From assembly GCF_001647285.1 (NCBI RefSeq), contig NZ_LRML01000019.1, positions 1 through 64,000 of the forward strand: a stretch of DNA of 64,000 nucleotides, given 5' to 3'. Every line of letters starts with the position of its first letter. Positions within the stretch are counted from its first letter, which is position 1. Both the position numbers and the translations under genes were made by a program. Under the pieces are notes generated by a model. The model worked only from the letters and a program-made list of their open reading frames with translations. It was not told the origin of the DNA and searched no databases. The DNA is from Rufibacter roseus. Its GTDB lineage: Bacteria; Bacteroidota; Bacteroidia; Cytophagales; Hymenobacteraceae. Of this stretch, positions 25,050 through 42,271 are shown in pieces.

Positions 25050-25197
25050 CCAAAGAAACGGGCAACAAACGGGAAGAGACATTTTGGCGTGCTACCTTAC
25101 ACCAGTTTCTTTCTCTGGGAGAAAGAGTAGCAGGACTTGAACCTGCACTTCCCGAACCTGAATCGAAGTAACTCTTGCCTACGGCACCGTTCTTTGG
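25050..25197 (-). ncRNA. Y RNA-like tRNA mimic, unit A
   Basis: Fourth unit of the array in transcription order. The ends pair (CCAAAGAA with TTCTTTGG). Inside lie the shared 5' block GGTGCCGTAGGCAAGAG and TTACTTCGA, and a 3' GTTGCCC, a variant of the TTGTCGCC seen in the other units. AAGAG pairs with CTCTT as a second helix. The tRNA-like part has a T-arm (GCAGG, loop TTCAAGT, CCTGC) and a capped acceptor-like helix (TCTTTCTC, CCA loop, GAGAAAGA). A degenerate D-arm (TGGTGTAAGGTAGCA) follows. It is the most diverged unit. The Y RNA assignment is inferred from structure and from the adjacent Ro60 gene. Confidence 0.7.
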
Positions 25198-25220
25198 TTA
25201 AAAATTTAATAGGTATTGCC

Positions 25221-25275
25221 AGCTCATTCCCCCCATTGGTAACTGTTTTGTTGGGTACACCAATGGAAATGAGCT
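25221..25275. other. 55-bp stem-loop between Y RNA units A and B
   Basis: AGCTCATT pairs with AATGAGCT (8 bp). After an asymmetric internal loop, CCATTGG pairs with CCAATGG (7 bp), leaving a loop of ~20 bases. It could end transcription of unit B, guide processing between B and A, or be an independent structured RNA. Confidence 0.55.
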
Positions 25276-25306
25276 TCAAATTCTACTTGTAAATAATTAA
25301 GGCACA

Positions 25307-25453
25307 CGAGCGGGCGACAAGCGATAGGAGACTGTACGTTGCTCTACCAACTGAGCTACACCTCCAGTGATAAAAGCTGGTGGAGGTGACGGGACTCGAA
25401 CCCGCGACCCACGGATTAAGGATCGAAGTAACTCCCACCTACGGCACCGCTCG
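25307..25453 (-). ncRNA. Y RNA-like permuted tRNA mimic with encoded CCA, unit B
   Basis: The best tRNA mimic. Reading 5' to 3' on the minus strand: outer stem CGAGCGG, shared GGTGCCGTAGGTGGGAG and TTACTTCGA, then the 3' half of a tRNA (T-arm GCGGG, TTCGAGT, CCCGT; acceptor CACCTCC followed by ACCA). A 12-base linker leads to the 5' half (GGAGGTG, TA, D-arm GCTC AGTTGGTA GAGC), then CTCC, TTGTCGCC and CCGCTCG closing the outer stem. The acceptor strands pair perfectly over seven bases. The order is circularly permuted relative to a normal tRNA, and the anticodon arm is replaced by the Ro-type stem. The encoded CCA and the linker suggest possible RNase P or RNase Z recognition (inference). Confidence 0.8.
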
Positions 25454-25491
25454 TTTTTGCCTTGTTTTTCAGAAATCAGGTCTAAAACAGG
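25452..25491. repeat. Intergenic palindrome copy 8
   Basis: CGTTTTTGCCTTGTTTT, loop, GAAATCAGGTCTAAAACAGG. It lies between Y RNA units C and B and overlaps the 5' end of unit B by two bases. Confidence 0.8.
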
Positions 25492-25496
25492 AGAGG

Positions 25497-25607
25497 GGAA
25501 AGGGCGACAGGCGGCGCGTGCTTACCGCCCTTGCGGACGGGCAGGGCTCGAACCTGCAACGTCAAAAAGACTTACCACGAAGTATCACGCGCCTACGGCA
25601 CCTTTCC
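25497..25607 (-). ncRNA. Y RNA-like minimal tRNA mimic, unit C
   Basis: Second unit in transcription order and the shortest (111 nt). The outer stem is GGAAAGG with CCTTTCC. The shared ends are GGTGCCGTAG and CTGTCGCC, and the upper helix is GGCGCGTG with CACGCGCC (8 bp). Inside are a small hairpin GTC-TTTTT-GAC, a T-arm (GCAGG, loop TTCGAGC, CCTGC) and a six-pair acceptor-like helix CCGTCC/GGGCGG capped by a GCAA tetraloop. There is no D-arm, so the mimic is reduced to the T-arm plus acceptor minihelix. The Ro-type stem is intact, which argues the unit is functional rather than decayed. Confidence 0.75.
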
Positions 25608-25678
25608 TGTTTCTCTGTTTTCTAAGTAAGTTTTAGCGCTTCAAATTTGTTTAGTCTGGTGAGGCCATAAAAGGAGGC

Positions 25679-25818
25679 GGAAAGGGCGACAAGCAACAGG
25701 AGACTGTAAACATTGCTCTACCAACTGAACTACGCCCCCTGGGGAGCGGAGGGACTCGAACCCCCGACACATGCTATCGAATGGAAGTCGAAGTAACTCC
25801 CGTCTACGGCACCTTTCC
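25679..25818 (-). ncRNA. Y RNA-like permuted tRNA mimic, unit D
   Basis: First unit after the Ro60 gene (140 nt). The outer stem is GGAAAGG with CCTTTCC. The shared ends are GGTGCCGTAG and CTTGTCGCC, and a second helix CGGGAG pairs with CTCCTG. The tRNA-like part is permuted: T-arm (GGGGG, loop TTCGAGT, CCCTC), acceptor 3' strand CGCTCCC, a two-base CA link, acceptor 5' strand GGGGGCG (7 bp with one G-U), then TA and the D-arm GTTC AGTTGGTA GAGC. Unlike unit B, no CCA or linker is present, so the acceptor stem is closed. I see no promoter box close to the 5' end; it may be cut from the Ro60 transcript. Confidence 0.78.
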
Positions 25819-25843
25819 TTTTACTTTGTATGGTTCTCAACTT

Positions 25844-25883: not shown

Positions 25884-25901
25884 TTTTATAGTATTGCAGG
25901 T

Positions 25902-27434
25902 TTAATCTATCTCGGTTTTCTCTACCTCCGCCAAAGCGTTGCCGCCGTTCTCAATGGCCTGCAGTACTTCAAACACCTTGTCTGACCAACCGGAGATCAG
26001 GAAGACATCGTCCTGCTCCAGGCTTAGGGGCGTGGTGCCATGGCCGGCCAGGTCAAACAGGTAGAGGCGGGCGCAAGGGTACAGGGCCTTGTACTGCTTC
26101 CACTCGTGAGCCAGGCTGGTGTTGTTGCCGGTGCTGTTCCAGAGCTGGCAGTCGGTGAAGAGCATGATTTTGTCTGCTTTCACTTTCCGTTGGCGCAGGT
26201 CTTTGATCACCAGAAAGCCATTGGTGCTGTAGCCCACTTCGCCTGCCTTACGGTACAGCTCCTGCACGTTGGCCAGCACTTGCCCTTTGGGCAGGTTTAT
26301 GGTTTTCCAGGTGTCGCCGAACATGCCGGAGATGACCCGCTCACATTTGTGTTGCAACAGCATGCCCAGGAGCAGGCCAATGTCATAGAGCATGACCTTG
26401 CTCCGCGCCGATACCGGCATCTGCATAGAGCCCGACACGTCACAGGCCACGACCACCTTCTGCTCACCGGAAAAGCCGGGCAAATTGCGGATGCTGTGCT
26501 GCACGGCCTCTTCCAGCGCGCTGAGCACGCGGGAGACATCGGCTGAGGCCAGGCCTTTCACCTCGCGGTACGCCGCCAGAAACCGGAACGGCAACTGCTT
26601 CGCTTTTTGCACCGCCAGCGGGCTGGCCAGCGTCTGACATACCTTCCGGATGTGCGCATCAGAAACCTGGGCCTCCAGAATGTTGCGGAGGTTGCGCAGC
26701 AGGGCCATATAGCCCAGCCGCCCGCTGTCTATGAGCTCTTCCCACTTCGCTCGAAACGCCTGATCCCGCGCCTCCTTATCTGCAAAGGGCTGTTGCCCCA
26801 GCGCCGACAGTTCGGTTTCCCAGGTGTAGGGCGTGGGCAGTGTGTTAGAGGCAATCTGGTGGAATACGGCTTGCTGCCGCTGGTCTTTGGGCTGCGGGTG
26901 CACCAGGAACAGGGCATCGCGGAGTTTGACCTCGGCGGCGCGGTTGTACTTGGCGAACTGGTAGGCATCAAAGCGGTTGAAGGCCAGGGCCACGCCCCGC
27001 TGCAGTTGCTTTGAAAGCCGGTTCAGTTTTTTGGTGCCTTGGCGGCCGTTCCGGAGCTGGTAGTACGCCAGCAATTCGGTAATTTCATCGACGCGTTGCA
27101 GGGTCTGGGCCACGGCGCGGCTCACCAGGTTGTCGCCGCGGTGCCGGTGCGCCAGCTCCACCAGCAATACCAGGGGCACGCTGCGCAGGTTCATTTTGGT
27201 GCGGGCGTACACCGCCAGCTTCGCCACAAACTCCGGCTCGTTCTGCGCCACCAGTTCCTGCAACCGCTCCAGCCGGGCACCGGCGGTCTGGTAAAAGGTG
27301 TTCTGCAACGAAGCCGTGACAGTGGCCGCGTACAGCTCCGCCTTCGGGTCCATTTTCCAAGCCAACGCCCCCTCATAATTCAAGGTGTCGGCTTCGGTCG
27401 CTTTTGTTTTCGGTTTGAAGAAGTTGAATCGCAT
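25902..27434 (-). CDS. rsr: Ro60-type TROVE/vWA RNA-binding protein (Rsr)
   Basis: A 510-residue bacterial Ro60 orthologue. The N-terminal two thirds form the TROVE HEAT-repeat ring that binds misfolded RNA ends and Y RNAs. From about residue 325 a von Willebrand A domain follows with an intact MIDAS motif (ACDVSGSM) and a later LFTDCQ strand. I start at 27434 (MRFNFFKPKT) because this puts the shared upstream motif 41 bases away, as in the other two operons; the ATG at 27461 would leave only 14. Four Y RNA-like units follow on the same strand, and rtcB is upstream, interrupted by an OLD-like gene. Together they indicate an RNA quality-control or repair complex. Confidence 0.92.
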   Translation of the reverse strand: MRFNFFKPKTKATEADTLNYEGALAWKMDPKAELYAATVTASLQNTFYQTAGARLERLQELVAQNEPEFVAKLAVYARTKMNLRSVPLVLLVELAHRHRGDNLVSRAVAQTLQRVDEITELLAYYQLRNGRQGTKKLNRLSKQLQRGVALAFNRFDAYQFAKYNRAAEVKLRDALFLVHPQPKDQRQQAVFHQIASNTLPTPYTWETELSALGQQPFADKEARDQAFRAKWEELIDSGRLGYMALLRNLRNILEAQVSDAHIRKVCQTLASPLAVQKAKQLPFRFLAAYREVKGLASADVSRVLSALEEAVQHSIRNLPGFSGEQKVVVACDVSGSMQMPVSARSKVMLYDIGLLLGMLLQHKCERVISGMFGDTWKTINLPKGQVLANVQELYRKAGEVGYSTNGFLVIKDLRQRKVKADKIMLFTDCQLWNSTGNNTSLAHEWKQYKALYPCARLYLFDLAGHGTTPLSLEQDDVFLISGWSDKVFEVLQAIENGGNALAEVEKTEID

Positions 27435-27475
27435 CGCCTTTGTGGTTAGTGAACGATACAAAGGTGAGGGGGCAG

Positions 27476-27495
27476 TGCGCAGTCTTTTTGCGTAG
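27476..27495 (-). promoter_or_regulatory. Shared 20-bp motif upstream of Ro60 gene
   Basis: Plus-strand reading TGCGCAGTCTTTTTGCGTAG. In transcription orientation, nine bases then CACCTTTG (a partial TAnnTTTG box) follow. The motif covers the expected -33 region. Near-identical copies lie at 31087-31106 and 40365-40384. Confidence 0.75.
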
Positions 27496-27515
27496 GTGGA
27501 GAAAGTTTTAGAAAA

Positions 27516-29564
27516 TTAATTAAAATTATTGTTATGCCTCTGAATAAATTCAAATAAAGTAATTGTAATATCTCTTGCGTCTTGGTTTTGGCTTATGTCT
27601 TTCCAAGTTAAGTTATGGGCTTCAACTTCATCTAGGACAAATTTTGAGAATTTGTTTTTATAATCAGTTGTCAAGGTGTTGCTGTTTGTCTCTTTAACTT
27701 TAGGAATTTTTGGTACTTTATTTCTTAATCTTTCAGTAAGGAATTTGCCTAATCCTTCTTGTCTGTACCTTAATTCTGTAAATTCCATTCTATCAACAAT
27801 CTCACTTTCAATCTTTAGAACTTTTTTCATGATTCTATTTATGATTACCGCCGAAAGGGTATTCTCGATCTCTAAAGCGCCAGTTGTTTTATAAAGAAAT
27901 TTTTCGCTTTGCCATTTCTGGTACTCTTCATGCTTTTGTTGTTTCCAATCACTTGAATCTTGATCTGCAAGAATGAAAATTCTATTGGAAAGGAAATGAG
28001 CTTTTATTTTGTTAAGGTCATTAGAATTTTCTTCATTAAAAAGATAATGCTGAAGATTTGAACCAGCATATTCAAAAAAAGAATAATGTAAATCTTCCTG
28101 ATATGTTTTTGTTTGGGTGTTGGAGTATGCTAATAAAAATGCTTGAAGGTAGCGCCTGTCTGAGATTCCTTCTACCCATATGCTACAATTTGACATAAAA
28201 ACTGAAGCATTGTAAACACCGAGTAAGTCTAATACTTTGGTATTGTTTCCAATTACTTGGGATATTCTTGTTGGGCTCTTATTCTCAATCTCAATTTTTT
28301 CGAATGAAAAGATTGAGATTGATTTCTGATGTGATAAACTAAGATTTAACAGATGATTGGAATGGCTTGTTAAAAAGAAAGTTAGATTTTTACTTTTGAT
28401 GAAGCTATTCGCAAGAAGTGTGTTTAAAAAAATGTGTTGAAGTCCAGGGTGTAAGTTTATTTCTGGCTCTTCAATGAAAAACCATGAATCTTTTTCTGCC
28501 ATAAATATAGGATAGAGGAGAATTATTAAAGATTGAACGCCATCACCTAAATCATGAATTTCTCTGTCTTCTTCTCCTTTAATATAAATCTGAATATGTT
28601 CCTCTTCATTAGTGTCTTCTTCAAGGGCGATTATGTCTATATCTCTTCCATCAAAAAAGTTATTACTTAGAAATTCTTCGAAATTTCTAAATCTATCTCT
28701 AATTTCTCTTCTGCTATTCCTGTTTTTCTTTATCTTGTTGAAGAGATCCATTCCAGTAAAGACTTCTATCTTGTCTTCTGGCTTGATTTGATAGTGCTTG
28801 CAAATTGTTGAATGGTATATATCTCTATTGATTTTATAGGTTTGATTATTGTCTGATTTGTCATAAAAAGAGACAGCGGATCTTAGTGTAGGAATATAAA
28901 TTTTTTTTGGACTAAAATAGTCAATTTTAGAATTTAATAGCGTTGTGGTTAGATCTAATAAATTTTTGAAATTATTAAACCCTTTTAAGACTTTATTTGA
29001 TGAAGCGTTTACTCTTATATAGCTAGTATGATTGCCTCCTGTCTCATTTATGATTTCATGAATATTTACAATAACGTCAAGAGCAAGGTTGAGTTGTTTA
29101 ATTTGGATTAGTGAGGTTGATATATCGTCTGATGAATTTAAAGAGTTTATGGTGTCGTCAATAACTTTATTAATATAATATTCATTTACTTCTATTGAAC
29201 TTGAATTGAAATTTATTATAAAATTTTTTATTTTATTAAAGAAGGTATAGTCTGGGTTTATATTTTGAACTGAGTTTGCTGAAGTTCTTTTAGTGATTGT
29301 AACATGAGATCCTTCATCGAATGAAGTAAATATATTTTCTGCTTCAAATTTAATCTTCTGTATAATTTCTTGAATGTTAATATTTAATAAGTTAAGTGAT
29401 GGAAGTTTGAGTAAAGATCTGGTAAATCTGCTTTTACGGGAATTGTTTGAGCCAATTAATATATTTAATTTATTTATACTGCCTATACAGTTAATTATTT
29501 GGTTTTCAGTATTTATATAATCTTGGTTAATGACACTTTTAGGTAAATACAAGTATTTGTTCAT
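27516..29564 (-). CDS. OLD-like ATPase with TOPRIM nuclease domain
   Basis: A 682-residue protein. The N-terminus has a Walker A-like GSNNSRKS, where Arg replaces the usual Gly before Lys. Near residue 360 comes the OLD-type Walker B (WFFIEEPEINLHP) and the H-switch (FFLTSHSNHLL). The C-terminal third carries TOPRIM acidic motifs: Glu in WVEGISDRRYL and the DxD of ILADQDSSD. OLD-family proteins are nucleases often found in phage defence. The gene is far more AT-rich than its neighbours and splits rtcB from the Ro60 gene. It looks like a later insertion, possibly a defence gene. Its stop codon lies within 25 bases of the Ro60 promoter motif. Confidence 0.82.
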   Translation of the reverse strand: MNKYLYLPKSVINQDYINTENQIINCIGSINKLNILIGSNNSRKSRFTRSLLKLPSLNLLNINIQEIIQKIKFEAENIFTSFDEGSHVTITKRTSANSVQNINPDYTFFNKIKNFIINFNSSSIEVNEYYINKVIDDTINSLNSSDDISTSLIQIKQLNLALDVIVNIHEIINETGGNHTSYIRVNASSNKVLKGFNNFKNLLDLTTTLLNSKIDYFSPKKIYIPTLRSAVSFYDKSDNNQTYKINRDIYHSTICKHYQIKPEDKIEVFTGMDLFNKIKKNRNSRREIRDRFRNFEEFLSNNFFDGRDIDIIALEEDTNEEEHIQIYIKGEEDREIHDLGDGVQSLIILLYPIFMAEKDSWFFIEEPEINLHPGLQHIFLNTLLANSFIKSKNLTFFLTSHSNHLLNLSLSHQKSISIFSFEKIEIENKSPTRISQVIGNNTKVLDLLGVYNASVFMSNCSIWVEGISDRRYLQAFLLAYSNTQTKTYQEDLHYSFFEYAGSNLQHYLFNEENSNDLNKIKAHFLSNRIFILADQDSSDWKQQKHEEYQKWQSEKFLYKTTGALEIENTLSAVIINRIMKKVLKIESEIVDRMEFTELRYRQEGLGKFLTERLRNKVPKIPKVKETNSNTLTTDYKNKFSKFVLDEVEAHNLTWKDISQNQDARDITITLFEFIQRHNNNFN

Positions 29565-29621: not shown

Positions 29622-31040
29622 TTACTCCCCCTCCAAATACTTCTCATTCCCACACATTCGCACAATCTTAGGGGTGAAAGTGCCTACCACGTCTACCAGT
29701 TCCTGCTGGGCGGCCATGACCTGGTGGATGTCTTTGTAGGCCATGGGCGCTTCGTCCAGGCCGGAGCCGATGAGGTCTATGCCCGCGGCTTGCAGGTGCT
29801 GTTGCACCAGGGCGGGAGAGAGGGTGTTCTGGGCTTGGGTGCGGGACATCTGACGTCCGGCCCCGTGCGAAGCGGAGTTGACCGAAGCCGCCACGCCGCG
29901 TCCGCGCACGATAAAGCCGGGGGCGGTCATGGAGCCCGGTATAATACCCAGCACGCCTAATCCGGCCGGAGTAGCGCCTTTGCGGTGCACAATGACTTCC
30001 CGCCCCTGCGCGTCCAGCTCTCTCCAGGCGAAGTTGTGGTGGTTCTCCACTAGGGCCAGCGGTTCCAGGGCCAGAGCCTGCGCCAGCCGCGCGTGAATCT
30101 GGTGGTGGCACGCGCTGGCGTAGTCGCCGGCCAGGTTCATGGCGAGCCAGTATTCCTGCCCGGCCTCAGTGTCCAGATCTAGCCAGGCCAGGTGGCGGGC
30201 CTCCTGCGGAAGCGGCGTTTGCGCCATGGCCAGTTTGGTGTAATGCCCGGCAATTTGCGCACCCAATCCGCGGGAACCCGAGTGGGAGAGAATACCCAGA
30301 TATTCTCCCACGGGTAAGCCAAACTCGTTCTGGGCATCAGAGAGCGTCACCGCCCCGAACTCCACAAAGTGGTTTCCGCCACCCGAAGAACCCAACTGCG
30401 AAAAGGCCCGGTCTTTCAACCCACGCAGCACCGGAATCTCCATGAACTCCGCGCGGTCAATCACGGCATGCTCCTGCGGCTTCTGGAACGTGGCCCGCCC
30501 GAAGCGCGTGTTGTCTACCAATATCTTTTTGAGTTGGTCGCGTTGCTCGGTTATCAACGTGGCCGGAGCTGGGTAAAGCGTCAGGCACATGCGGCACCCA
30601 ATGTCCACGCCCACGGCGTAGGGAATAATGGCGTTGCGCGTGGCCAGCACCCCGCCAATGGGCAAGCCGTAGCCTTGATGCGCATCGGGCATGAGGGCAC
30701 CCGCCACCGCCACCGGCAAACGCATGGCCGTCACCATCTGGCGCTTCGCCCCTGACTCAATCCCCTCCACGCCATACGTGGTGAAGGGAATAGGTGCGTC
30801 ATGCAGGGGAATAATGCCTGGTGCCTTGGGTGCCGTAAGCGCCTCTGCCAAGTCCGCGAGAACGGGGTGGGCAAGGTATTCGGCTGGGTTGGCCAGTACC
30901 TGCGCTAAAAGTAGAAGCTGTTCCTCTAGGGGAGTAGCGGCAAAGTGCGCCTGCAGCAATTTGAGCGTCACACCAATTGCCTTGCCCTCAGGGAAGCCAA
31001 GGGCGAGCAGGTCTTTTCCGGTAAGTGTTTCGTTTGCCAT
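29622..31040 (-). CDS. rtcB: RNA-splicing ligase RtcB
   Basis: A 472-residue GTP/Mn-dependent ligase that joins 2',3'-cyclic phosphate or 3'-phosphate ends to 5'-OH ends. Metal-site and active-site motifs are visible: GVDIGCRMC, GGGNHFVEFG, HSGSRGLG, ENHHNFAW, HRKGATPA and SHGAGRQMSR with the guanylylated His. The length matches the family. No RtcA cyclase or RtcR sigma-54 activator is nearby, unlike enterobacterial loci; the WYL protein at 40526 is the likelier regulator here. The gene heads an operon with the OLD-like and Ro60 genes on the same strand and carries the shared 20-bp motif 46 bases upstream. Confidence 0.95.
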   Translation of the reverse strand: MANETLTGKDLLALGFPEGKAIGVTLKLLQAHFAATPLEEQLLLLAQVLANPAEYLAHPVLADLAEALTAPKAPGIIPLHDAPIPFTTYGVEGIESGAKRQMVTAMRLPVAVAGALMPDAHQGYGLPIGGVLATRNAIIPYAVGVDIGCRMCLTLYPAPATLITEQRDQLKKILVDNTRFGRATFQKPQEHAVIDRAEFMEIPVLRGLKDRAFSQLGSSGGGNHFVEFGAVTLSDAQNEFGLPVGEYLGILSHSGSRGLGAQIAGHYTKLAMAQTPLPQEARHLAWLDLDTEAGQEYWLAMNLAGDYASACHHQIHARLAQALALEPLALVENHHNFAWRELDAQGREVIVHRKGATPAGLGVLGIIPGSMTAPGFIVRGRGVAASVNSASHGAGRQMSRTQAQNTLSPALVQQHLQAAGIDLIGSGLDEAPMAYKDIHQVMAAQQELVDVVGTFTPKIVRMCGNEKYLEGE

Positions 31041-31086: not shown

Positions 31087-31106
31087 TGCGCAGTGTTTTT
31101 GCGCAG
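31087..31106 (-). promoter_or_regulatory. Shared 20-bp motif upstream of rtcB
   Basis: Plus-strand reading TGCGCAGTGTTTTTGCGCAG. In transcription orientation it is followed after nine bases by TTGCTTTG, which places TTTG exactly as in the other two promoters. The RtcB ATG is 46 bases downstream. Confidence 0.75.
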
Positions 31107-33421: not shown

Positions 33422-36400
33422 TTATATGATAGAAATTCTTTTAATCACCTTGCCTCTTGAGGTATGGATCACCAATAGGAACATTCCGGGTGGGGCATGG
33501 TTTAGGTTCACTTCTACGCTCTCCGTCTGACCCGCTGTGATGTTTTGAGTGTGTAGCAGTTTGCCGGTTATTTCAAAAACCTGTACTGCCTGCACATCAA
33601 AATCAGCTTTAATAAAGTCAACGGTAAACTTGCCTGTGCTAGGGTTAGGGTACACCTGAATAGCCTGGTCTGCGGTGAGTTCCTCAACGGTAAAGTTGGC
33701 GTGAGCCCGACCGCCCAGCCCCGCTACCGTTACCTGTCCGGTGACGGCACCTCGCGGTACCCGCACCTGTATAGTAGTGTTGGAGGCGTTCAAGACCAAT
33801 GCTTTTGCTTCACCAAACCAAACGGTGTCTTGCTCCCCAATGGCTAAGAAGTTATCTCCTTTTAAATCTACTACCGAGCCCACACTGGCACGGGCAGGTT
33901 GCACTGCTGTAATGATGGGCGCAGGAATAATTTCAAAGAATTTGCTGGCAGAGCCGCCAGGCGTAGTAGCGGTCACCATGCCTGACACCGCGACTGCAGG
34001 TACTTTTACCAGGATTGAGTTCCCTGTAGACGCTAGTACTTCTGCTGGCTTATCACCAAACTGTACAACATTTCTGTTATTCTCTGCAGCAAAATTGTCT
34101 CCTAAAAGGATAACGAGCCCGCCCACGCGTTGTCTTGGTACATTAAAACCAGAAATGGAGGGAGTATACCATACTTTGAAAGCGGTGTGGCTAACGGCTT
34201 CTCCACCTTTTGACAGTATAGTGAATTTGCCGGTGGTGGCATTATGCGGTATGGTTACAGTAACTGAGTTTGTGCCGAATCTGATAATAGGGCAAATCAA
34301 TTCTCCTAGCAAAACCTGTTTTACCAACTCTTGGGTTAAGAAGCTGCCTTGCAGCGTCACCTCTGAACCAATAATTCCCTCAGTGGGGCTAAAGCTGGTA
34401 ATAACAGGTGGTTGGTAAATGATAAAGTTAGTAGGGCTGGTGCCTTGGCCATTCTCTGTGATCACTTTTACTGGGCCTGTTGTGGCTCCCGTTGGTACTA
34501 CTACTCTCAATAAGGTAGGGCTGGCTTCTATTACCTGCGCCTGCGTTGTATGGAAGAATACCTGATTTTTGTCGGCGCCCTCAGCGAACTTGCTGCCGGT
34601 AATGGTCACTTCAACTCCCACCTTTGCTGCATTGGGGCTGAAGTCCGCCACAACAGGGTGATGCCAGACCATGAACTCCTGCGCGCTCTCCACCTGCCCC
34701 CCGAGGGTCTTGATCAGGATCTTTCCTTTGTAGGCGGTGGCAGGCACCTCTACCTTGAGCTGCGTTTCTGAGGCCTCCAGTACTCTTGCCTCCACGCCGT
34801 TGAAGTAGACGGTGTCTTCCGCTATGACGGACGAGAAGTGGGTGCCTGTGATGGTTATTGTTGCCCCCGGTGTGCCTTCCCACGAGGAGAGGGAACTGAT
34901 GGTGGGTACTTGAAAGACAGTGAACACTTCGGCGGCGCTGGCTGTCCCGTCAGAGGTAACTATCTTCACCTTGCCCGTAGTTGCGCCAAATGGCACCAAC
35001 GCTTTCAGCTCTGTGGCGGTGGCGGCAGTTATCTGGGCTTGGGTGCCGTTGAAGTATACTTTGTTGCCGGAGGCGGTGGGGCTGAAGTTCCTGCCGGAGA
35101 TGGTGACCAGCGTACCTATCCTCCCTTGGGCAGGGGAGAAAGCCTCTATGCTCGGTGACACAACCACATCCCTTGCTGATAACTGGCGATCACTGAGTAC
35201 AGGCGGCATGTCGTAGATGCGGTTCTGGATGGTGTTGGTGCGCACCGGCTCGTTGTAGTCGAAGAAGATGTCGGCCAGGTTCTCGATCAGGTGTTTCTCC
35301 GGCAGGTCTGCTTTCGGCCTCACGCTGAACTGGATGAAACCGTTGCTGCCGGCCTGGTCGGCGGCGCTGTCGGGCAGCATGATGTTGTTGAAGGTGAAGG
35401 TGAGTACCGGCTTCTCCTTACCGCTCACCGAGAGCACGTACGGGTGCGACACCGCGCCCACCTGAAAGGTGGCCATATCCAGGTCAGCGGAGAGCGTGTC
35501 CACTACCACCACGCGGTAGGCCACGTCGGTGCCGGTGTTCTGGAACCGGACGGTGTAGCGCAGCGGGGTGTTGGTGGGGGTGTAGAACTCTGAGGTGAGG
35601 CCCACGGGCACCACCTGCTTGTCATTGGGGTCGTAGGAGTCCACGATGGGCAGGCACTCCTCCACGAACTCAGGCTCAGGGTCGTCGGGCGGAAGGGCCA
35701 TCATGGCCACGTCCGGCAGACCGGAGGTGTTGCGGCTTCGGATCTCTAGGTTGGCGCTGGCCATGGTCTTGATTGGGTGCCCCTCAGGCTGTTCTGCTTC
35801 CATCCTAAGCACTCTGCCGGTAGTAGGTACGCGCAGGACGGTGCTGTCGCCGGAGGCGAGCTGGTACTTTCCTGTTGTCAGGAGCTCCTGGTCTTCGTAG
35901 ATGCGGAAGGAGAGGCTGTCTTTCATGCTGCCCTGGCCTTTGTTCAGCAGAACGAATCGGGCTTGGTCCCCCGCAGATTCCGCTGCGGAGAGGGCGATGT
36001 CGGCCTTGTCCCAGACGGGTGACTCGGGGTAGGTATTGGTAGGGGTGATCCACGCTTTGGTGCAGACGGTGAGGCCCCTGATAGTAGGGTCGGCGCAGGA
36101 GACGGAGTCACTGATGGAGATAGTGCCCCGCTGGCCCGGCTGCAGGGTGCCCACCTCGAAGACGTAGTTGCCCCTGGCGTCTCTGGTGAAGGGAAACGAG
36201 GCGGACTTGAAAATGACCTCCGCCGGAAACTGCACGTGCACCTTGGCATTTGCCGCCGGGGCGAAGCCAGTGTTGGAATAGGAGACAGTGGTCAGGTTCT
36301 CCATGCAGCGTCTGCGCCGGTTAGAGGAGAGGGAGACGTTAAGAATTGGGGACAGAGTTACATGATAGCCAAAGTCTGGGCCCATGACCAAGATTCCATC

Positions 36401-38329
36401 TTTCTCCACGTTTATGATAGGGCCAGTGGGTGAACAAGTGGGAATAATCTGTTTTCCTGTAACAGAGGGTGGTATCAAGGCCGAAACAGTATAGGAGCCA
36501 CTCTTCACCGGAATTACATACTCTCCGTTTTCATCAGAAATACCATAATAGGGGCCTGGTTCGGCTTTTACTATTATGCCGGGCAAGGGCTTCTCCCCAG
36601 TATTGACTTTACAGTTTAAATTTGAATCCTGGAAAATTTTACCGGTTATGGCGCTTTCAATTGGCGTGCCTGCAGAAAGATGTTCCGTAACGTAAGAGAA
36701 GTTCAGCACCAACAGTTTGTTACCTGTTCTATTAAAAGATAACAGACCGGACGAGCTAGGTATGGAGCTGATTTGTTGGCCTTTAGGGTTAATTACCCTA
36801 ATCACACTTCCCTCACCACTCCATAAATAAATATTGCCAAAATGATCTACCTGAATTGAAGCTAAAGGCAGGTTAAAATTCCGCGGATAAGAGCCTTCCG
36901 GACCTTTTAGATCGAAAACGTCAAGTACGGCATTTGTACTGCTGTACTTATGAATTCTGTAATTATTGTAATCCACCACGTACAGGTTGCCGGCTTTGTC
37001 GGTGGTCAAAGCAGAAGGGGAATAGAAAGTTCTGCCTCCGCCAGGGTAACCTATAATCTCCCCTTTCGGATTGATTTTTACAGCATGGCCAAATTGTGCG
37101 TTAAGCACATAAAAGTTGCCCTGAAAGTCTAAGTGGAACTGCGCAAACTTGTAAATACCGTTCGTAGGGGTAGGAGGGAACTCCATGAGGGTTTTCATCA
37201 ATTTGCCTGCAGAAGAAAACTGTTTAATGCGGGCTCTATTGGTGGTATTAGATTCAAACAAGAACACATTACCCATGGCATCGGCTTGAATGCCAATTGG
37301 TAACCATTGAAAGCCTGACTCAATTCCTGTGTATTCAAATTTCAAAAGCAGCTTCCCATAAGAATTGTATTTCTCTATGGCTACCGCAGGGGAAGTCTGG
37401 AGCAGGTAATAATTCCCGAAACTGTCTTGAGTAATGGATTTGTATCTTTTTGTGTTCCCAATGGTTTGCCTGAGTTCTCCGGAGGAAGTAAAGATTTGAA
37501 CCAGGCCATTTTGGTCAATATAATTTTCTGCAACATGTATTTCGCCCTGAGCACTTATGGCCAGATTCTTAGTTCCATTACTGATTGTGGCCCCAACGGT
37601 ACTTAAATATTGGCCTCCCTCAGAAAGCCTTTCAATCTTCTTGCTATACTCTTCAATGACATACAAATTACCAGAAGAATCTACGCCCAGGTCTCCGTAG
37701 TTTTTGGTGGAAGTATTATGAGGAAGAGAAATTTTAATGGTGCCAAGCAGGATGCCGTCCAAAGAATACTTCATGATTTGGTCTGCGGTGGAAGAAGCCA
37801 AAAGGATATCATTGGGCGTAATGGTAATTCTTCTTAAGGGAACGCCTGTGGTAAAGCTTCGGAGTAAAACACCGTTTTTGTTAAACTTTTGAATTAGATT
37901 TACCTCATTATAATGAACAAAGCTGTTTCCTTCTGAGTCAACCGCAATACCGGAAACATGTGCTGTTTGCCCGGACGGTTTTACATCAAACTTAGCTATG
38001 GAGGCGCCGGAAGGGTTTAAGATTTTTACATAAGAATAGCTGAAGTTGAGGAGGTACACATTTCCCTGCCGGTCAACGTCAATGGCATTCATATACCCTG
38101 GGTAATCTTCTGTGACTTCCCCTATCGTCTTTAGAAAAGTGCCCGAACTGTCAAACACTTTCACATGATTGTGTTCCAAAACATATTTGTTTCCCTCCTG
38201 GTCTAGGGCTATGTCATAGGCGTGTGACATAGGTAAGCCAAAGGTTCTTGTTAGATTAAATTCTGGTACCTGCGCCCAAAGAAGAACGGAAGGAAGTAAC
38301 AAGAGGAGGGAAAGTAAAAGCTTTTTCAT
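33422..38329 (-). CDS. Giant T9SS-secreted protein: NHL-type propeller, DUF11-like, six IPT/TIG domains
   Basis: An ~1635-residue secreted protein. The start at 38329 (MKKLLLSLLLLLPSV) gives a clean signal peptide; an ATG six codons upstream is possible. Residues ~25-560 are NHL-like propeller repeats (GNKYVLEHN, GNVYLLNFS, GNLYVVDYN, GNIYLWSGE). Next come an SdrD-B-like segment (GKIFQDSNLNC...YGISDENGEYVI), the DUF11-like block, a YDPNDKQVVP/FFDYNEPVRTNT segment, six IPT/TIG domains and a T9SS sorting domain (VYPNPSTGKFTVDF). It shares the same C-terminal plan as the 20762-24850 protein with two more IPT units and a different propeller. It is likely a surface adhesin; the ligand is unknown. 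Confidence 0.88.
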   Translation of the reverse strand: MKKLLLSLLLLLPSVLLWAQVPEFNLTRTFGLPMSHAYDIALDQEGNKYVLEHNHVKVFDSSGTFLKTIGEVTEDYPGYMNAIDVDRQGNVYLLNFSYSYVKILNPSGASIAKFDVKPSGQTAHVSGIAVDSEGNSFVHYNEVNLIQKFNKNGVLLRSFTTGVPLRRITITPNDILLASSTADQIMKYSLDGILLGTIKISLPHNTSTKNYGDLGVDSSGNLYVIEEYSKKIERLSEGGQYLSTVGATISNGTKNLAISAQGEIHVAENYIDQNGLVQIFTSSGELRQTIGNTKRYKSITQDSFGNYYLLQTSPAVAIEKYNSYGKLLLKFEYTGIESGFQWLPIGIQADAMGNVFLFESNTTNRARIKQFSSAGKLMKTLMEFPPTPTNGIYKFAQFHLDFQGNFYVLNAQFGHAVKINPKGEIIGYPGGGRTFYSPSALTTDKAGNLYVVDYNNYRIHKYSSTNAVLDVFDLKGPEGSYPRNFNLPLASIQVDHFGNIYLWSGEGSVIRVINPKGQQISSIPSSSGLLSFNRTGNKLLVLNFSYVTEHLSAGTPIESAITGKIFQDSNLNCKVNTGEKPLPGIIVKAEPGPYYGISDENGEYVIPVKSGSYTVSALIPPSVTGKQIIPTCSPTGPIINVEKDGILVMGPDFGYHVTLSPILNVSLSSNRRRRCMENLTTVSYSNTGFAPAANAKVHVQFPAEVIFKSASFPFTRDARGNYVFEVGTLQPGQRGTISISDSVSCADPTIRGLTVCTKAWITPTNTYPESPVWDKADIALSAAESAGDQARFVLLNKGQGSMKDSLSFRIYEDQELLTTGKYQLASGDSTVLRVPTTGRVLRMEAEQPEGHPIKTMASANLEIRSRNTSGLPDVAMMALPPDDPEPEFVEECLPIVDSYDPNDKQVVPVGLTSEFYTPTNTPLRYTVRFQNTGTDVAYRVVVVDTLSADLDMATFQVGAVSHPYVLSVSGKEKPVLTFTFNNIMLPDSAADQAGSNGFIQFSVRPKADLPEKHLIENLADIFFDYNEPVRTNTIQNRIYDMPPVLSDRQLSARDVVVSPSIEAFSPAQGRIGTLVTISGRNFSPTASGNKVYFNGTQAQITAATATELKALVPFGATTGKVKIVTSDGTASAAEVFTVFQVPTISSLSSWEGTPGATITITGTHFSSVIAEDTVYFNGVEARVLEASETQLKVEVPATAYKGKILIKTLGGQVESAQEFMVWHHPVVADFSPNAAKVGVEVTITGSKFAEGADKNQVFFHTTQAQVIEASPTLLRVVVPTGATTGPVKVITENGQGTSPTNFIIYQPPVITSFSPTEGIIGSEVTLQGSFLTQELVKQVLLGELICPIIRFGTNSVTVTIPHNATTGKFTILSKGGEAVSHTAFKVWYTPSISGFNVPRQRVGGLVILLGDNFAAENNRNVVQFGDKPAEVLASTGNSILVKVPAVAVSGMVTATTPGGSASKFFEIIPAPIITAVQPARASVGSVVDLKGDNFLAIGEQDTVWFGEAKALVLNASNTTIQVRVPRGAVTGQVTVAGLGGRAHANFTVEELTADQAIQVYPNPSTGKFTVDFIKADFDVQAVQVFEITGKLLHTQNITAGQTESVEVNLNHAPPGMFLLVIHTSRGKVIKRISII

Positions 38330-38405
38330 TTGGCTAGATGAATTCAATATTGGTTATGAAAACCTGCTTGTAAAGAATAAAATATTTGATATAAGTTGTG
38401 TTAAA

Positions 38406-38513: not shown

Positions 38514-39575
38514 TTAACACTGGTAAAACTCCCGCCGCATTTGCACCAGCACCTCATTTATCTTTGTCAGATCTGGCTCTATAGGTAAATCAGAAGCGGC
38601 ATAAAGCGCATCCATCTTTTCAATCCGTTCCTCGGCCATCTGCACCAGTTCTGCATACTCAAATGCACAGGAGCGGATTTGGAGCAGGAAATCACGATTG
38701 GGTCTGCGTACTTGTATTTGGCCGGTGCGGGCAATTTCCTCGGCCATGTCTAGCAGCCGGAACGTGTGCATGAGGTTCTTGGCATCATAGTTCTTGCCGT
38801 GGCTGAGGGTGTTTTGGTAGCGGGCGTCGTTCCGTCTCTCCACCCATTCCCAATACTCGCGGTATTCTTTGCAGTAAGTGGAGTAACCGTTCTTGTTAAA
38901 GGACATGAGCGCCAGTGGTTCCAAGCCTTTAGGAATGGAGCTAAGTGAAACATCGTTGGCTTCGGAGTTCTGGACAATGCCTTTGAAGTTGGAAACTGGG
39001 TCAGAATACAGGCCATACAGTTCCGGCATGTGCGGAATCTTGGCCAGCCCACAGGTTTCCTGCCGTAGCCCGCGCTCCGCCAGGAATTCCAGTACCGGTA
39101 CCGCGCCCTGCCCCTGTGCCACAAAGCAAAAGTCCAGCACGCTTTTGCGCTGCGGCTCCACCGGGTTGACAATTTTCTTGTTCAAACCTTTGGCTTTTTT
39201 GACCTGCGTAAGGGCGTAGCCGGCAAAAGTGGTCTGGCAAAGCCTGGATAGGAACAGCTTAGGCTTTAGGCGCTGGAACAAAGGGTGCTGTTGTAGAATA
39301 CAATCCTCAGGCATAGCCAGCAACTCCAGCATATTGGGGTTGTTTTTGGCCAACAATTCAACAAACCGCTTCAGCTCATAATAAACAATGTCGTTGCTGG
39401 GGTTGTTCAGTTGCTCAGTGTAGTGCAGCCCGTACAGGTCTGCCTGCGGCAACACAAATACCCCGCGGATATCGGTGTCAGAGGTGGGGGTGGCCAGGCC
39501 ATAAGCTTTGCTACCGCTGATGCACTCCAGCAGTAAAAGGTTCTTTTTAGGTAAATCTTCAAGCGAGAGTGCCAT
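38514..39575 (-). CDS. Nucleotidyltransferase of RNA-repair type (second of pair)
   Basis: A 353-residue protein with the minimal nucleotidyltransferase signature GSKAYGL near residue 20 followed by SDTDIRGVF, giving the two metal-binding acidic residues. The long helical C-terminus (YKEYREYWEWVERRNDARYQ and onward) is typical of the YcgL-like/DUF-type group seen near RtcB loci. It probably adds a nucleotide to an RNA end or to a protein; the substrate is unknown. Its start overlaps the upstream nucleotidyltransferase gene by 17 bases, so the two are translated together. The shared 20-bp motif precedes the pair. Confidence 0.85.
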   Translation of the reverse strand: MALSLEDLPKKNLLLLECISGSKAYGLATPTSDTDIRGVFVLPQADLYGLHYTEQLNNPSNDIVYYELKRFVELLAKNNPNMLELLAMPEDCILQQHPLFQRLKPKLFLSRLCQTTFAGYALTQVKKAKGLNKKIVNPVEPQRKSVLDFCFVAQGQGAVPVLEFLAERGLRQETCGLAKIPHMPELYGLYSDPVSNFKGIVQNSEANDVSLSSIPKGLEPLALMSFNKNGYSTYCKEYREYWEWVERRNDARYQNTLSHGKNYDAKNLMHTFRLLDMAEEIARTGQIQVRRPNRDFLLQIRSCAFEYAELVQMAEERIEKMDALYAASDLPIEPDLTKINEVLVQMRREFYQC

Positions 39576-40326
39576 GGTCTAAAACGGTTTTACGGAATAA
39601 GGTATCCAGTGCTTCGGTACTGCCATTGGCTTTGGGCATGTCTTCAGCTTTGCTTTCGCAGTAGCGTAACGTTTGGTAAAGATACTGCTCCAGCGCCTCT
39701 TCCTTTGGGTGTACATATTGTTCGGTTACGGTGGCTTTTAGTGTAAGAAGCTCCTCAATTTTTTGAAGTAGCGAGGGATCTTCCACTAATGGGAGCAGCT
39801 CCGTGAACAGCATGGGCGGCATAGTTCGGTACTCCACAATCCAGCGGCTGGCCAGGGTGGTGCGCAGCAAATAAAAGTAGCTCTTCAGCTTTACATTTTG
39901 CTCTGGCGCACAAGCCTTGTAATAGTTGAAGGCCATGCTCAGGTAGTGGTGCAGCCCAGCCCGACAAGAGAAATAAGTAGGTGCCACTGCCTGCAAATCT
40001 TCCAGAAATGACCTCTGCTGTCTGTACACTATAGGCGACTGCATTTTTTCGAATATTGACGCATTGGATTTACGGAGCAGGCGTAATGCTTTCCGCAGAT
40101 CCCAGCCTACCAAGTCAAGGTCGCCGTCCATAGACTCAAGGGTGTCTTTCCGCTCGTCAATGGACAGGTACCAGTCTGGCTGGTGCTGGTACACAAATCG
40201 CACATCATAATCAGAGTCGGGTGAGGGGAAACCCCAGGCGCGGCTGCCGCTTTCTATGGCAAACAAAATGGTGATGTTGTTTTGGGTCTCTAGTTCCTGC
40301 AGTTTCTGTTGTATCAGTTTTTCCAT
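39559..40326 (-). CDS. Nucleotidyltransferase of RNA-repair type (first of pair)
   Basis: A 255-residue YcgL-like nucleotidyltransferase. The catalytic motif is GSRAWGF, then SDYDVRFVY, near residues 25-45. I start at 40326 (MEKLIQQKLQ) because the shared motif then lies 38 bases upstream; the ATG at 40350 would leave only 14. It is distinct in sequence from the following nucleotidyltransferase, so they are paralogues with probably different substrates. It is divergent from the WYL-PhyH regulator gene, with a 199-bp shared intergenic region. Confidence 0.85.
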   Translation of the reverse strand: MEKLIQQKLQELETQNNITILFAIESGSRAWGFPSPDSDYDVRFVYQHQPDWYLSIDERKDTLESMDGDLDLVGWDLRKALRLLRKSNASIFEKMQSPIVYRQQRSFLEDLQAVAPTYFSCRAGLHHYLSMAFNYYKACAPEQNVKLKSYFYLLRTTLASRWIVEYRTMPPMLFTELLPLVEDPSLLQKIEELLTLKATVTEQYVHPKEEALEQYLYQTLRYCESKAEDMPKANGSTEALDTLFRKTVLDHGTLA

Positions 40327-40364
40327 AGTTGTTTTCTTTTGATGCTTCAAAAGAAAGACCTAAC

Positions 40365-40384
40365 TGCGCAGGCTTTTTGCGTAG
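40365..40384 (-). promoter_or_regulatory. Shared 20-bp motif upstream of nucleotidyltransferase operon
   Basis: Plus-strand reading TGCGCAGGCTTTTTGCGTAG. In transcription orientation, after nine bases comes TTCTTTTG, with TTTG in register with the Ro60 and rtcB copies. The motif lies in the divergent region shared with the WYL-PhyH gene. Confidence 0.78.
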
Positions 40385-40424
40385 TAGAAAGTTTTTTCTA
40401 AATTTCTTCCCAAAGCATCAACGG

Positions 40425-40432
40425 TAGGTTTG
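40425..40432 (+). promoter_or_regulatory. Bacteroidota -7 promoter box of WYL-PhyH gene
   Basis: TAGGTTTG, a perfect TAnnTTTG box, 93 bases before the ATG at 40526 on the plus strand. No clear TTG-type -33 element sits at the usual distance. Confidence 0.5.
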
Positions 40433-40525
40433 AGTTTATAGCCTTGCATCCTGCTATTCAGGGAAGCAAAAAACCATAACCACTCACTTTAATCTAATAA
40501 CTGTTCACTGATTACTGACACCCTC

Positions 40526-42271
40526 ATGCCCGTTAACCGCAATGCCCTTATCCGCTTCAGAACCATAGACAATTGCCTCCGGAACCGGTACCGTAAATGG
40601 ACGTTGGAAGACTTGATTGAAGCCTGCTCTGAGGCTTTATACGAGTACGAGGGCATTGACAAAGGCGTGAGCCGGCGCACCGTGCAGATGGACTTGCAGC
40701 TCATGCGCAGCGATAAGTTGGGGTACAATGCGCCGATTGTGGTAGTGGACAAAAAGTACTACTCCTATGAAGACCCTGACTACTCCATCACCAACATTCC
40801 GCTCACCGATCAGGATCTGGGTAAACTGACCGAGGTAGTGGAAATACTGCGGCAGTTTAAGGGCTTTACGCATTTTAACGAGCTCAACGGCATGGTGCAG
40901 AAGCTGGAAGACCGAATCTACACCGCTAAAACGAAGCAAGCACCCATTATTGACCTGGAAAAAAACGAGCACCTGAAAGGACTGGAGCACCTGGATGTGC
41001 TGTACCAGGCCATCCTGAAAAAGCAGGCGCTCACGCTGACCTATCAGTCTTTCCGCGCCCGTGATGCCAGCGACTTTACCTTTCACCCGTACTTTCTGAA
41101 AGAATTCCGGAACCGGTGGTTTCTGGTGGGCGTGAAGAAGCGGTCTCAGCCGGTGCTTACCCTGGCGCTCGACCGTATTATTGCAGTGGAGGAGGCGCAG
41201 GTGGCTTACGTGGAGAACACCACCATTGATGTTTCGGCCTACTTTAGAGACGTGATAGGGGTGACCGTGAACCCCACTGAGGAACCGCAGACTGTGGAGC
41301 TGTATTTCAACGCTGACAATGCCCCCTACGTGCTCACCAAACCCCTGCACCACTCGCAGAAATTACTGGAAAGAACAGGTAATGGCATTATTGTGCAGCT
41401 CCAGGTGCAGCTGAATTTTGAGTTGGAGCGCGAGATCATGGGCTTTGGGGATTGCGTGAAAGTGCTGAAACCGGAGCGCCTGAAACGCCGCATTCAGGAC
41501 AAGATGAAAAACGCCGCGGAGCTGTACGAGAAAGAACTGAACCTGATAGAGCTGGAAAGCTGTAAGCGGAAAGTGCTGCGCAGCGGCTCCGCCATTTTAG
41601 ATAACCTATACACCCACAAAGAAGTGGGACAGATGCTCAGCATCATCAAACGCACCACGCAGGCGCATCCAGACCGGTTCAAAGGCACCGAAGATTTGTT
41701 TTCCATCCGGAACCTGCTGCAGGAGATTCCCAAACTCAAAACCGTGCTGTTTAACCAGAACCTTTGCCGGCTGGTGAAAGAGGGCTTCGGGGAAAATTAC
41801 TTCCTCACCAAGGCCATCTTTTTCGATAAGCCGCCGCAGTCTAACTGGTACGTGACCTGGCACCAGGACATACCCATTAATGTGCAGGGAAAAATCGAGA
41901 CCGAGGGTTTTCGGGGTTGGACAAACAAAGCCGGATTAATAAGCGTGATTCCGCCGCTGGAGTACCTGCAGAAGTCGGTCACGGTGCGGGTACACTTAGA
42001 CGATACCGATGAAAAAAACGGAGCGCTCCGCGTAATTCCCAAAACGCATTTCAAAGTGCTGAACAGTGAAGAGATTGCCCACATCAGGGAAACGGAGGAG
42101 CCGAAGTGCTGCAAAGTTCTGCGCGGTGGCGTGCACCTCATGAAGCCTCTAACACTGCACGCTTCCTCTAAAACCGAGAATGATCAACACCGCCGAGTCA
42201 TTCACCTAGAGTTTAACTGCCTAGAGCTGCCTGAGAAAATGGAGTGGCTGGAGCGGGAGGATGTGCTTTAA
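40526..42271 (+). CDS. WYL-domain transcription regulator fused to PhyH-type dioxygenase
   Basis: A 581-residue fusion. Residues ~1-85 are a winged-helix DNA-binding region (DLIEACSEALYEYEG, VSRRTVQMDLQLMR). Residues ~135-210 are a WYL domain (LTLTYQSFRAR, FHPYFLKEFRNRWFLVGVKK, LDRI), followed by the WYL C-terminal extension to ~335. Residues ~345-581 look like a phytanoyl-CoA-dioxygenase-type 2-oxoglutarate/Fe(II) enzyme with the HxD of TWHQDIP, a distal His in LTLHASSKT and an Arg in HRRVIHLEF. WYL proteins often sense nucleic-acid ligands. It is divergent from the nucleotidyltransferase operon and is the prime candidate to bind the shared 20-bp motif. The role of the dioxygenase half is unknown. 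Confidence 0.85.
   Translation: MPVNRNALIRFRTIDNCLRNRYRKWTLEDLIEACSEALYEYEGIDKGVSRRTVQMDLQLMRSDKLGYNAPIVVVDKKYYSYEDPDYSITNIPLTDQDLGKLTEVVEILRQFKGFTHFNELNGMVQKLEDRIYTAKTKQAPIIDLEKNEHLKGLEHLDVLYQAILKKQALTLTYQSFRARDASDFTFHPYFLKEFRNRWFLVGVKKRSQPVLTLALDRIIAVEEAQVAYVENTTIDVSAYFRDVIGVTVNPTEEPQTVELYFNADNAPYVLTKPLHHSQKLLERTGNGIIVQLQVQLNFELEREIMGFGDCVKVLKPERLKRRIQDKMKNAAELYEKELNLIELESCKRKVLRSGSAILDNLYTHKEVGQMLSIIKRTTQAHPDRFKGTEDLFSIRNLLQEIPKLKTVLFNQNLCRLVKEGFGENYFLTKAIFFDKPPQSNWYVTWHQDIPINVQGKIETEGFRGWTNKAGLISVIPPLEYLQKSVTVRVHLDDTDEKNGALRVIPKTHFKVLNSEEIAHIRETEEPKCCKVLRGGVHLMKPLTLHASSKTENDQHRRVIHLEFNCLELPEKMEWLEREDVL

Follow-up and report, generated by a model that had tools for sequence, protein, structure and literature searches.

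We analysed a 64,000-nucleotide (nt) stretch of the genome of Rufibacter roseus (positions 1 to 64,000 of contig NZ_LRML01000019.1, assembly GCF_001647285.1; hereafter the window), in which a set of RNA-repair genes lies together with small tRNA-like RNAs. The genes encode a Ro60-type protein with TROVE and vWA domains, the RNA ligase RtcB, a pair of RlaP-type nucleotidyltransferases and, divergently from the latter, a WYL-type regulator fused to a PhyH domain, and four Y RNA units lie beside the TROVE gene, all on the (-) strand. An earlier note on this DNA had located these genes and RNAs and read them as a single RNA-repair response. Pfam bore out the proteins, whose positions were correct at base level, and the four RNAs were likewise borne out as Y RNA units (Table 1). 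Here we describe two features of this island in more detail, namely an operator-like site common to its transcription units and anticodon arms on two of its Y RNAs, and discuss what they may mean for the function of the system.

Table 1. Features of the RNA-repair island of R. roseus, in window coordinates.
Feature	Position	Strand	Remarks
Operator-like site 1	27476..27494	(-)	TACGCAAAAAGACTGCGCA; 41 nt 5' of TROVE ATG
Operator-like site 2	31087..31105	(-)	TGCGCAAAAACACTGCGCA; 46 nt 5' of rtcB
Operator-like site 3	40365..40383	(-)	TACGCAAAAAGCCTGCGCA; 38 nt 5' of rlaP, between rlaP and divergent WYL-PhyH gene
Y RNA unit 1	25679..25818	(-)	140 nt; Ro60-type stem and permuted tRNA-like module (anticodon arm, T arm, acceptor, D arm)
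Anticodon arm of unit 1	25777..25791	(-)	Loop CUUCCAU, Gly-UCC type; stem of 4 base pairs (bp), 7-nt loop, U33, A37
Y RNA unit 2	25497..25607	(-)	111 nt; T arm and acceptor hairpin, D and anticodon arms not recognised
Y RNA unit 3	25307..25453	(-)	147 nt; T arm, acceptor with ACCA in linker, D arm; canonical anticodon loop not recognised
Y RNA unit 4	25052..25195	(-)	144 nt; T arm, acceptor, anticodon arm; D arm not recognised
Anticodon arm of unit 4	25153..25165	(-)	Loop UUCAGGU, Leu-CAG type; 5-bp stem, 7-nt loop, U33, G37
TROVE and vWA (Ro60-type) protein	25902..27434	(-)	510 amino acids (aa); Pfam TROVE 107.3 bits, vWA_Ro60 31.1 bits
RtcB 3'-phosphate RNA ligase	29622..31040	(-)	472 aa; Pfam RtcB 276.5 bits, full length, above cut-off
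RlaP nucleotidyltransferase	39559..40326	(-)	255 aa; Pfam RlaP 276.5 bits, full length
Second RlaP-like nucleotidyltransferase	38514..39575	(-)	353 aa; Pfam RlaP 85.3 bits, residues 14-127
WYL-WCX regulator fused to PhyH-type dioxygenase domain	40526..42271	(+)	581 aa; Pfam WYL 52, WCX 40, PhyH 44 bits
AAA ATPase / OLD-like gene	27516..29564	(-)	Between TROVE and rtcB; Pfam AAA_15; PADLOC AriA E 1.6e-14, GajA E 3e-10

Both domains of the TROVE protein scored above the Pfam cut-offs, which identifies the product as a member of the Ro60/TROVE type, and its TROVE profile matched solved structures of TROVE proteins (9l5y/9kop, E-value 4e-37) and of Ro60 (1yvp, 2e-12). Its score against the Rsr equivalog (NCBIfam NF041674) was 39.4 bits, below the cut-off of 900. 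The two RlaP proteins are above the cut-off of the corresponding Pfam family, which is labelled there as a family of RNA-repair pathways; no solved structure was matched by RlaP at E 0.01 with phmmer.

The stretches 5' of the TROVE gene, rtcB and rlaP have an operator-like site, TRCGCAAAAANNCTGCGCA, in common. Three exact copies were found in the window, compared with 0.05 expected from shuffles even at up to two mismatches, and in the entire genome of 5,117,794 bases the exact site occurs only at these three genes, one extra site having two mismatches. The shared promoter motif suspected in the earlier note is thus real, and its proposal that a promoter element connects three or more transcription units is supported by this site and its recurrence in relatives. 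Across 59 genomes (that of R. roseus included), the site with at most one mismatch was detected 38 times and the reversed pattern once, and an order-wide sample of 291 genomes, an even draw from a larger group, contained 35 exact sites in 25 genomes, compared with one for the reversed pattern. From both genome sets we obtained 47 exact sites, 40 of which were examined as loci, including the window's own three. A TROVE, RtcB, RlaP, Hen1 or WYL gene lies within 400 nt and in the correct direction at 33 of the 40, a number that takes in the three of the window, eight sites flanked by a divergent WYL gene alone and two sites at broken remnants (L043 and L056). In addition, CTTTG begins exactly 12 nt past the site in 27 of the 40 cases and in none of 40 control stretches. 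As we take TTTG to be the -7 element of Bacteroidota promoters, the operator-like site would cover the -33 region.

The site also led to genes absent from the earlier note. The open reading frame (ORF) 3' of an exact site in L040, reached via the site alone, matched Hen1_L of Pfam at 347 bits, and the one 3' of a one-mismatch site in L061 matched Hen1_N at 215 bits; in L170, an exact site is followed by an ORF 57% related to the Hen1-type ORF of L040. Hen1-type genes are a further member of the likely regulon in relatives. Two other loci may hold additional members, none with a Pfam match above the cut-off: a 461-aa protein adjoins a one-mismatch site in L053, and an exact site in L163 is accompanied by a 153-aa protein and an open-ended ORF of the L053 type. 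One could still regard the genes of the island as coincidental neighbours without common control, as other genes lie between rtcB and rlaP and a low-GC (guanine-cytosine) insertion separates the TROVE gene from rtcB. However, a private site that is present at all three units and recurs in relatives speaks strongly against coincidence, and we rejected this explanation as extremely improbable.

The WYL protein is the likely regulator of the three sites, as judged from its co-occurrence with the site and the position of its gene. The full-length WYL-PhyH protein was found in 10 of the 59 genomes and the exact site also in 10, nine genomes having both; the site is therefore present in 9 of 10 genomes with the full-length protein and in 1 of 49 without it (Fisher's test, P = 8e-9, not corrected for relatedness). 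The exceptions are G051, which has one-mismatch sites instead, and G015 of the same genus as R. roseus, in which exact sites are kept before broken TROVE and RtcB remnants (L043 and L056); the island thus seems to be decaying in G015. In other lineages, a WYL protein is encoded divergently from the site, with its similarity ending at about residue 335-350. Since a WYL protein without the PhyH part occupies this position elsewhere, WYL is likely the regulator and PhyH an optional addition. Consistently, only 7 of the 36 named TROVE loci with a WYL relative match through the PhyH part, so that PhyH does not serve as the distinguishing partner that the earlier note had seen in it, and the WYL regulator is the more conserved part of the two. 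Nevertheless, the motif W445-H446-Q447-D448 is invariant in all ten aligned WYL-PhyH sequences, and with its HxD motif so conserved the PhyH domain may be an active dioxygenase. The WYL region aligns (E-value 0.0013) with 9fnd and with chain AY of 7p5x, which we take to be PafBC; compared with WYL activators such as PafBC, the protein described here differs in the PhyH fusion and in its predicted site. An AlphaFold2 model of WYL-PhyH from a 10-row alignment had a predicted local distance difference test score of 53 and a predicted template modelling score of 0.26. No WYL-PhyH protein was confirmed on viral contigs.

The gene set itself recurs in relatives to different extents. Among the 59 genomes, TROVE was found in 18, RlaP in 18 and both in 13 (Fisher's test, P = 1e-5), so that 13 of the 18 TROVE genomes have RlaP, compared with 5 of the other 41; RtcB was found in 43. 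We also examined named TROVE loci, taking the 80 best of the 547 that were confirmed; some of these are short contigs. Within the examined flanks, RtcB accompanies TROVE in 52 loci, a WYL relative in 36, RlaP in 9 and a protein of the Hen1_L type in 6. The site with at most one mismatch lies within 120 nt 5' of the TROVE gene in 16 of the 80, and three Pontibacter loci (L065, L067 and L068) hold WYL-PhyH, RlaP, RtcB, TROVE and Hen1 inside about 12-13 kb. The co-occurrence put forward in the earlier note is therefore seen widely for Ro60, Y RNA and RtcB, and in part of the family only for RlaP and WYL-PhyH.

Y RNA units were recognised by the 5' motif TGCCGTAG-N2-G-N-G-N-GTTACTTCG, with up to six substitutions allowed and limits set on the two conserved ends. 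The motif occurs downstream of the TROVE gene in 80 of 81 loci, with 411 matches or, after 13 duplicates were merged, 398 distinct units, a set that is not fully clean, with at least one chance match among the 411, namely one of the five in the window, which lies in a coding region. In Bacteroidota, TROVE genes are thus usually accompanied by Y RNA arrays (three to eight motifs in 70 of the 80 motif-bearing loci), and the four copies in R. roseus, once thought to distinguish the island, are not special. Helix and architecture counts were made on the 201 units with a 3' anchor, the 197 of 398 without it being left out. Helix 1 has at least five of its six pairs in 152 of the 201 units (mean 4.98), compared with 42 (mean 3.46) when the partners were exchanged, and helix 2 has at least six of its seven pairs in 123 (mean 5.37), compared with 19 (mean 3.55). 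A slide by one base drops both helices to background, and most pairs show several Watson-Crick combinations, indicative of covariation. With a covarying, basal two-helix stem of the Ro60 type, a conserved internal loop and a Ro60/TROVE gene adjacent to them, the four window RNAs are, on the evidence of sequence comparison, Y RNAs. ARAGORN calls a 'tRNA-Gly(tcc)' at 25741-25814 on the (-) strand, inside unit 1; such Y RNAs may be misannotated as tRNAs in public genomes.

Inside the stem, a T arm, an acceptor hairpin and a D arm follow each other in the order of a circularly permuted tRNA. By our rule, this module was recognised in units 1 and 3, and the T arm only in units 2 and 4. Among the 172 units of up to 170 nt, T and D arms were both recognised in 66 and the T arm alone in 62; the other 29 of the 201 units are longer, may extend into the next unit and were excluded from the architecture counts. 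The Rfam model of YrlA (RF02553) aligned with unit 3 (E-value 3.3e-8, 43.5 bits) and unit 1 (1.7e-7, 41.1 bits), and at its gathering cut-off of 69 bits no match was found in the window. Energy folding of units 2 and 3 alone returns the T arm, the acceptor and, in unit 3, the D arm, and acceptor-stem pairing at free loop length was found in 107 of 150 T-arm units, compared with 84 after shuffling, a difference that does not decide the matter. Genes for permuted tRNAs that ligation turns into working tRNAs would also show the full permuted order seen in the four-armed units, and an RtcB gene is nearby and ACCA follows the acceptor of unit 3. However, CCA is correctly placed in 2 of the 150 T-arm units, the acceptor loop of unit 1 measures 4 nt, unit 2 has no recognised D arm, and the genome has ordinary tRNA genes, including that for Gly(UCC). 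On account of the permuted order, the closed acceptor loops and the scarcity of CCA, working permuted tRNAs were rejected, their probability being close to nil.

Many units carry, directly after TACTTCG, a hairpin resembling an anticodon arm. A 7-nt loop with at least three closing pairs is present in 200 of 398 units, compared with 126 (maximum 143) when the downstream bases were shuffled, and T occupies the second loop position in 120 of the 200, compared with 28 of 87, 29 of 100 and 38 of 102 for loops of 6, 8 and 10 nt, respectively. Loops of 5 and 9 nt were also raised (141 vs 122 and 169 vs 123), which we attribute to hairpins with 7-nt loops being read with a shift of one pair inwards or outwards. 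Under a looser rule (7-nt loop, U33 and purine 37), 96 of the 398 units (about a fifth) have the arm, compared with 15.5 (maximum 27) in 200 shuffles. We further compared the loops with a host reference of 32 tRNA genes and 29 distinct anticodon loops, where a match means the exact loop with at least two stem pairs. Exact host loops were found in 50 of 398 units and 34 of 81 loci (Lys-UUU 14, Asp-GUC 13, Phe-GAA 9, Asn-GUU 4, Pro-UGG 3, Trp-CCA 3, and Tyr, Leu, Arg and Met 1 each), compared with a mean of 0.51 and a maximum of 3 in 500 shuffles, and with 0, 1 and 1 for reversed, shifted and complemented controls; related sequences are not independent, so that these counts measure enrichment and not the number of events. 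The loop of unit 1 is not an exact match because that of the host tRNA-Gly(UCC) is CUUCCAA, and the loop of unit 4 is absent from the 29 host loops used for comparison.

A subset of 28 units, of which 26 are distinct and 23 come from Hymenobacter loci, shares a downstream anchor (GCCCRGG or a similar sequence) at constant distance and was aligned on it; the anchor takes in part of the 3' stem of the arm but not the loop. Of the 26 distinct sequences, all have U33, 25 have a purine at 37 and 25 a pyrimidine at 32, and positions 34-36 are the most variable in the loop (1.20, 1.35 and 1.21 bits). This is the pattern of a loop that is conserved as an anticodon loop but not in the anticodon itself. 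TROVE loci on viral contigs (the best 80 of 242, some contigs possibly not being phage) gave 131 distinct Y RNA motifs from 56 loci, and 7 of the 131 have exact host-type loops, compared with 0.23 (maximum 3) after shuffling. The minimum free energy fold of unit 1 alone (-50.0 kcal/mol) differs from that with the anticodon arm and the Y helices forced (-44.8 kcal/mol), and the arm is therefore argued from comparison, not from energy.

The anticodon arm needs to be weighed against an ordinary tether of the YrlA type, a model in which Y RNAs arise by capturing tRNA sequence and only tether PNPase or another enzyme to Ro60, the anticodon arm being a leftover or structural filler of tRNA mimicry without a role of its own. 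This model needs no anticodon arm. In its favour, the permuted order of T arm, acceptor and D arm equals that of YrlA and of the Y RNA structure 6CU1, for which a circular permutation relative to tRNA is described (PMC11472068). Moreover, anticodon identity is not conserved, and among units of up to 170 nt the arm is present in 33 of the 66 with T and D arms, absent from the other 33, and present in 7 of the 62 with a T arm only. Nevertheless, a mere leftover is not expected to keep U33 (26/26) and purine 37 (25/26) while positions 34-36 vary, and 11 units of the same size class carry the arm without a recognised T or D arm, five of them with an exact host loop (some of the other six are doubtful). 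We regard the tether model as quite possible, without thinking it probable.

We consider it probable that the island forms a WYL-controlled RNA-repair regulon, in which the Ro60-type operon, rtcB and rlaP are governed through one site and the Y RNAs act as surrogates of whole tRNAs. In this model, the WYL protein would sense a product of RNA damage, switch the units together and so set its own level along with those of RtcB, both RlaP proteins and the particle of Ro60 and Y RNA. The Y RNAs would hold Ro60 by their stem, while the tRNA-like module would offer a tRNA surface to other proteins and recruit to Ro60 enzymes that handle tRNAs (a nuclease, a ligase, a nucleotidyltransferase or enzymes of tRNA modification); the anticodon arm would let the Y RNA stand in for the very part of a tRNA that is cut. 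RtcB joins 3'-phosphate or cyclic-phosphate ends to 5'-OH ends, and could thus rejoin the 3'-phosphate and 5'-OH ends of cut tRNAs. Metal-independent RNases leave such ends (PMC7824862). RlaP would use nucleotidyl transfer to modify ends and could replace nucleotides that were lost.

Several observations weigh against the regulon or limit its reach. Binding of the WYL protein to the site is inferred from co-occurrence and position. At seven of the 40 exact sites, neither a known repair gene nor a WYL gene is adjacent; a Y RNA motif lies 78 nt downstream in one of the seven (L165), another (L166) runs into a tRNA-like RNA and an SPFH-like gene, and five are unexplained. The RlaP pair lies 7.5 kb from rtcB with other genes in between. 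As the site was found in the examined flanks of none of the 28 Hymenobacter TROVE loci, and the exact site is missing from 10 of the 18 genomes with TROVE, regulation through it is limited to some lineages. As for the Y RNAs, an anticodon arm is seen in only two of the four window units (under the looser rule) and in fewer than half of all units, and energy folding of units 1 and 4 alone departs from the expected fold.

The anticodon arm would also be explained if the Y RNAs were baits or fuses. Anticodon nucleases would then cut the loops of Y RNAs as well, sparing tRNAs, and the cut would open Ro60 or act as a signal until RtcB and RlaP reset the system. Compatible with this scenario are the varied genuine anticodon loops, some on units without other recognised tRNA arms and some on viral contigs, and the gene content of RtcB, RlaP and, in relatives, Hen1; Hughes et al. 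proposed the tRNA-like domain of YrlA as a possible competitive inhibitor of the nuclease (PMC7790460). The same paper, however, reports that fragments of Salmonella YrlA were not detected when tRNAs were cut, and a nuclease partner is not known here. We consider the bait scenario rather unlikely.

The linkage of Ro60, Y RNAs and RtcB and the existence of tRNA-like Y RNAs were already known (PMC7790460, PMC8394870). The RtcR-activated rsr-yrlBA-rtcBA system of Salmonella likewise comprises a Ro60 orthologue, tRNA-like Y RNAs and RtcB induced as one response (PMC7790460). It is, however, a single RtcR-regulated operon with RtcA, whereas in R. roseus the units are separate and share a site, and a WYL gene, the two RlaP genes, Y RNA arrays and anticodon arms are present. 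Neither RtcA nor RtcR was among the ten island proteins scanned with Pfam, the remaining genome not having been searched for either. Of the reading in the earlier note, one RNA-repair set in three or more units, the shared promoter element and the co-occurrence in relatives are supported; the four-unit array and the PhyH partner, named there as setting the island apart from the enterobacterial rsr-yrl-rtcBA plan, are not distinguishing traits.

The window units have the circularly permuted T arm, acceptor and D arm in common with YrlA (RF02553; 6CU1), although at 41-43 bits they stay under the gathering cut-off of the family. The RF02553 model has no anticodon arm in its positions 23-88 of 114; its 4-bp helix is followed immediately by the T arm and has just 22 positions before it, too few for such an arm. 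D, T and acceptor arms are the ones named in a review (PMC8394870). In the literature on Y RNAs, Ro60 and WYL that we covered, to which key Y RNA papers do not belong, neither Y RNA anticodon arms nor the operator-like site were found to be reported, so that both features are provisionally new within that literature. Hen1- and RtcB/RlaP-type RNA-repair gene clusters, reportedly described by Burroughs and Aravind in 2016, are alike in gene content, Pfam calling both RlaP and Hen1_L RNA-repair families, while a common operator or regulator of the present kind is not reported for them in the literature covered. The TrcR regulon of Anabaena likewise places rtcB and a slipin gene under one repressor with a tRNA array, but TrcR is a ribbon-helix-helix repressor and the array consists of real tRNAs (PMC10272220).

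The AAA/OLD-like (AriA-like) gene between the TROVE gene and rtcB has a GC content of 0.28-0.31, compared with 0.58-0.62 in its two neighbours, and no match of at least 60 bits was found to it in the 80 named TROVE loci; it was rejected as a system member and regarded as a low-GC insertion. Genes without a visible link to the RNA-repair set fill the region of 31.2-38.3 kb. Two very long proteins encoded on the (-) strand (20762-24850 and 33422-38347) have long near-identical stretches in common; the latter sits between rtcB and rlaP, and a related sequence flanks rtcB in L058 and L059.

Nine stretches downstream of the site (exact or with one mismatch) lead through non-coding tRNA-like modules into a gene of the SPFH/Band_7 type (L062, L166, L167, L173-L175, L177, L178 and L090:12632-13408). 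The gene was assigned by Pfam in L167 and L173, by tblastn in L090 and by similar N-termini in the others. A T arm is present in all nine stretches and a D arm in five, and a hairpin with ACTTCT...AAAA occurs also in L173, L175, L177, L178 and L090. These stretches look like a second family of tRNA-like RNAs. In L049, modules with T and D arms downstream of a one-mismatch site are followed by a gene matching NCBIfam RING_SCO0854 at 59 bits (cut-off 600).

Extending the bait scenario, it is attractive to speculate that Bacteroidota and some phages keep Ro60-bound Y RNAs as whole-tRNA decoys with a changing panel of true anticodon arms, which anticodon nucleases would cut instead of tRNAs or together with them. 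The cut would change the state of Ro60 and set off repair, with RtcB and RlaP resetting the system, the same WYL switch would also control the permuted tRNA-like RNAs before the SPFH-domain protein, and anticodons would shift between species because the attackers shift. We present this extended scenario as doubtful.

With respect to the regulon, the shared site provides a sequence tag for finding more RNA-repair members in unannotated genomes, and has already yielded the Hen1-type genes and the second set of tRNA-like RNAs before SPFH genes. Each anticodon-armed unit, in turn, predicts which tRNA, and hence which nuclease, it may stand in for. The anticodon arms offer a direct handle on the role of bacterial Ro60 and Y RNAs beside RNA ligases.

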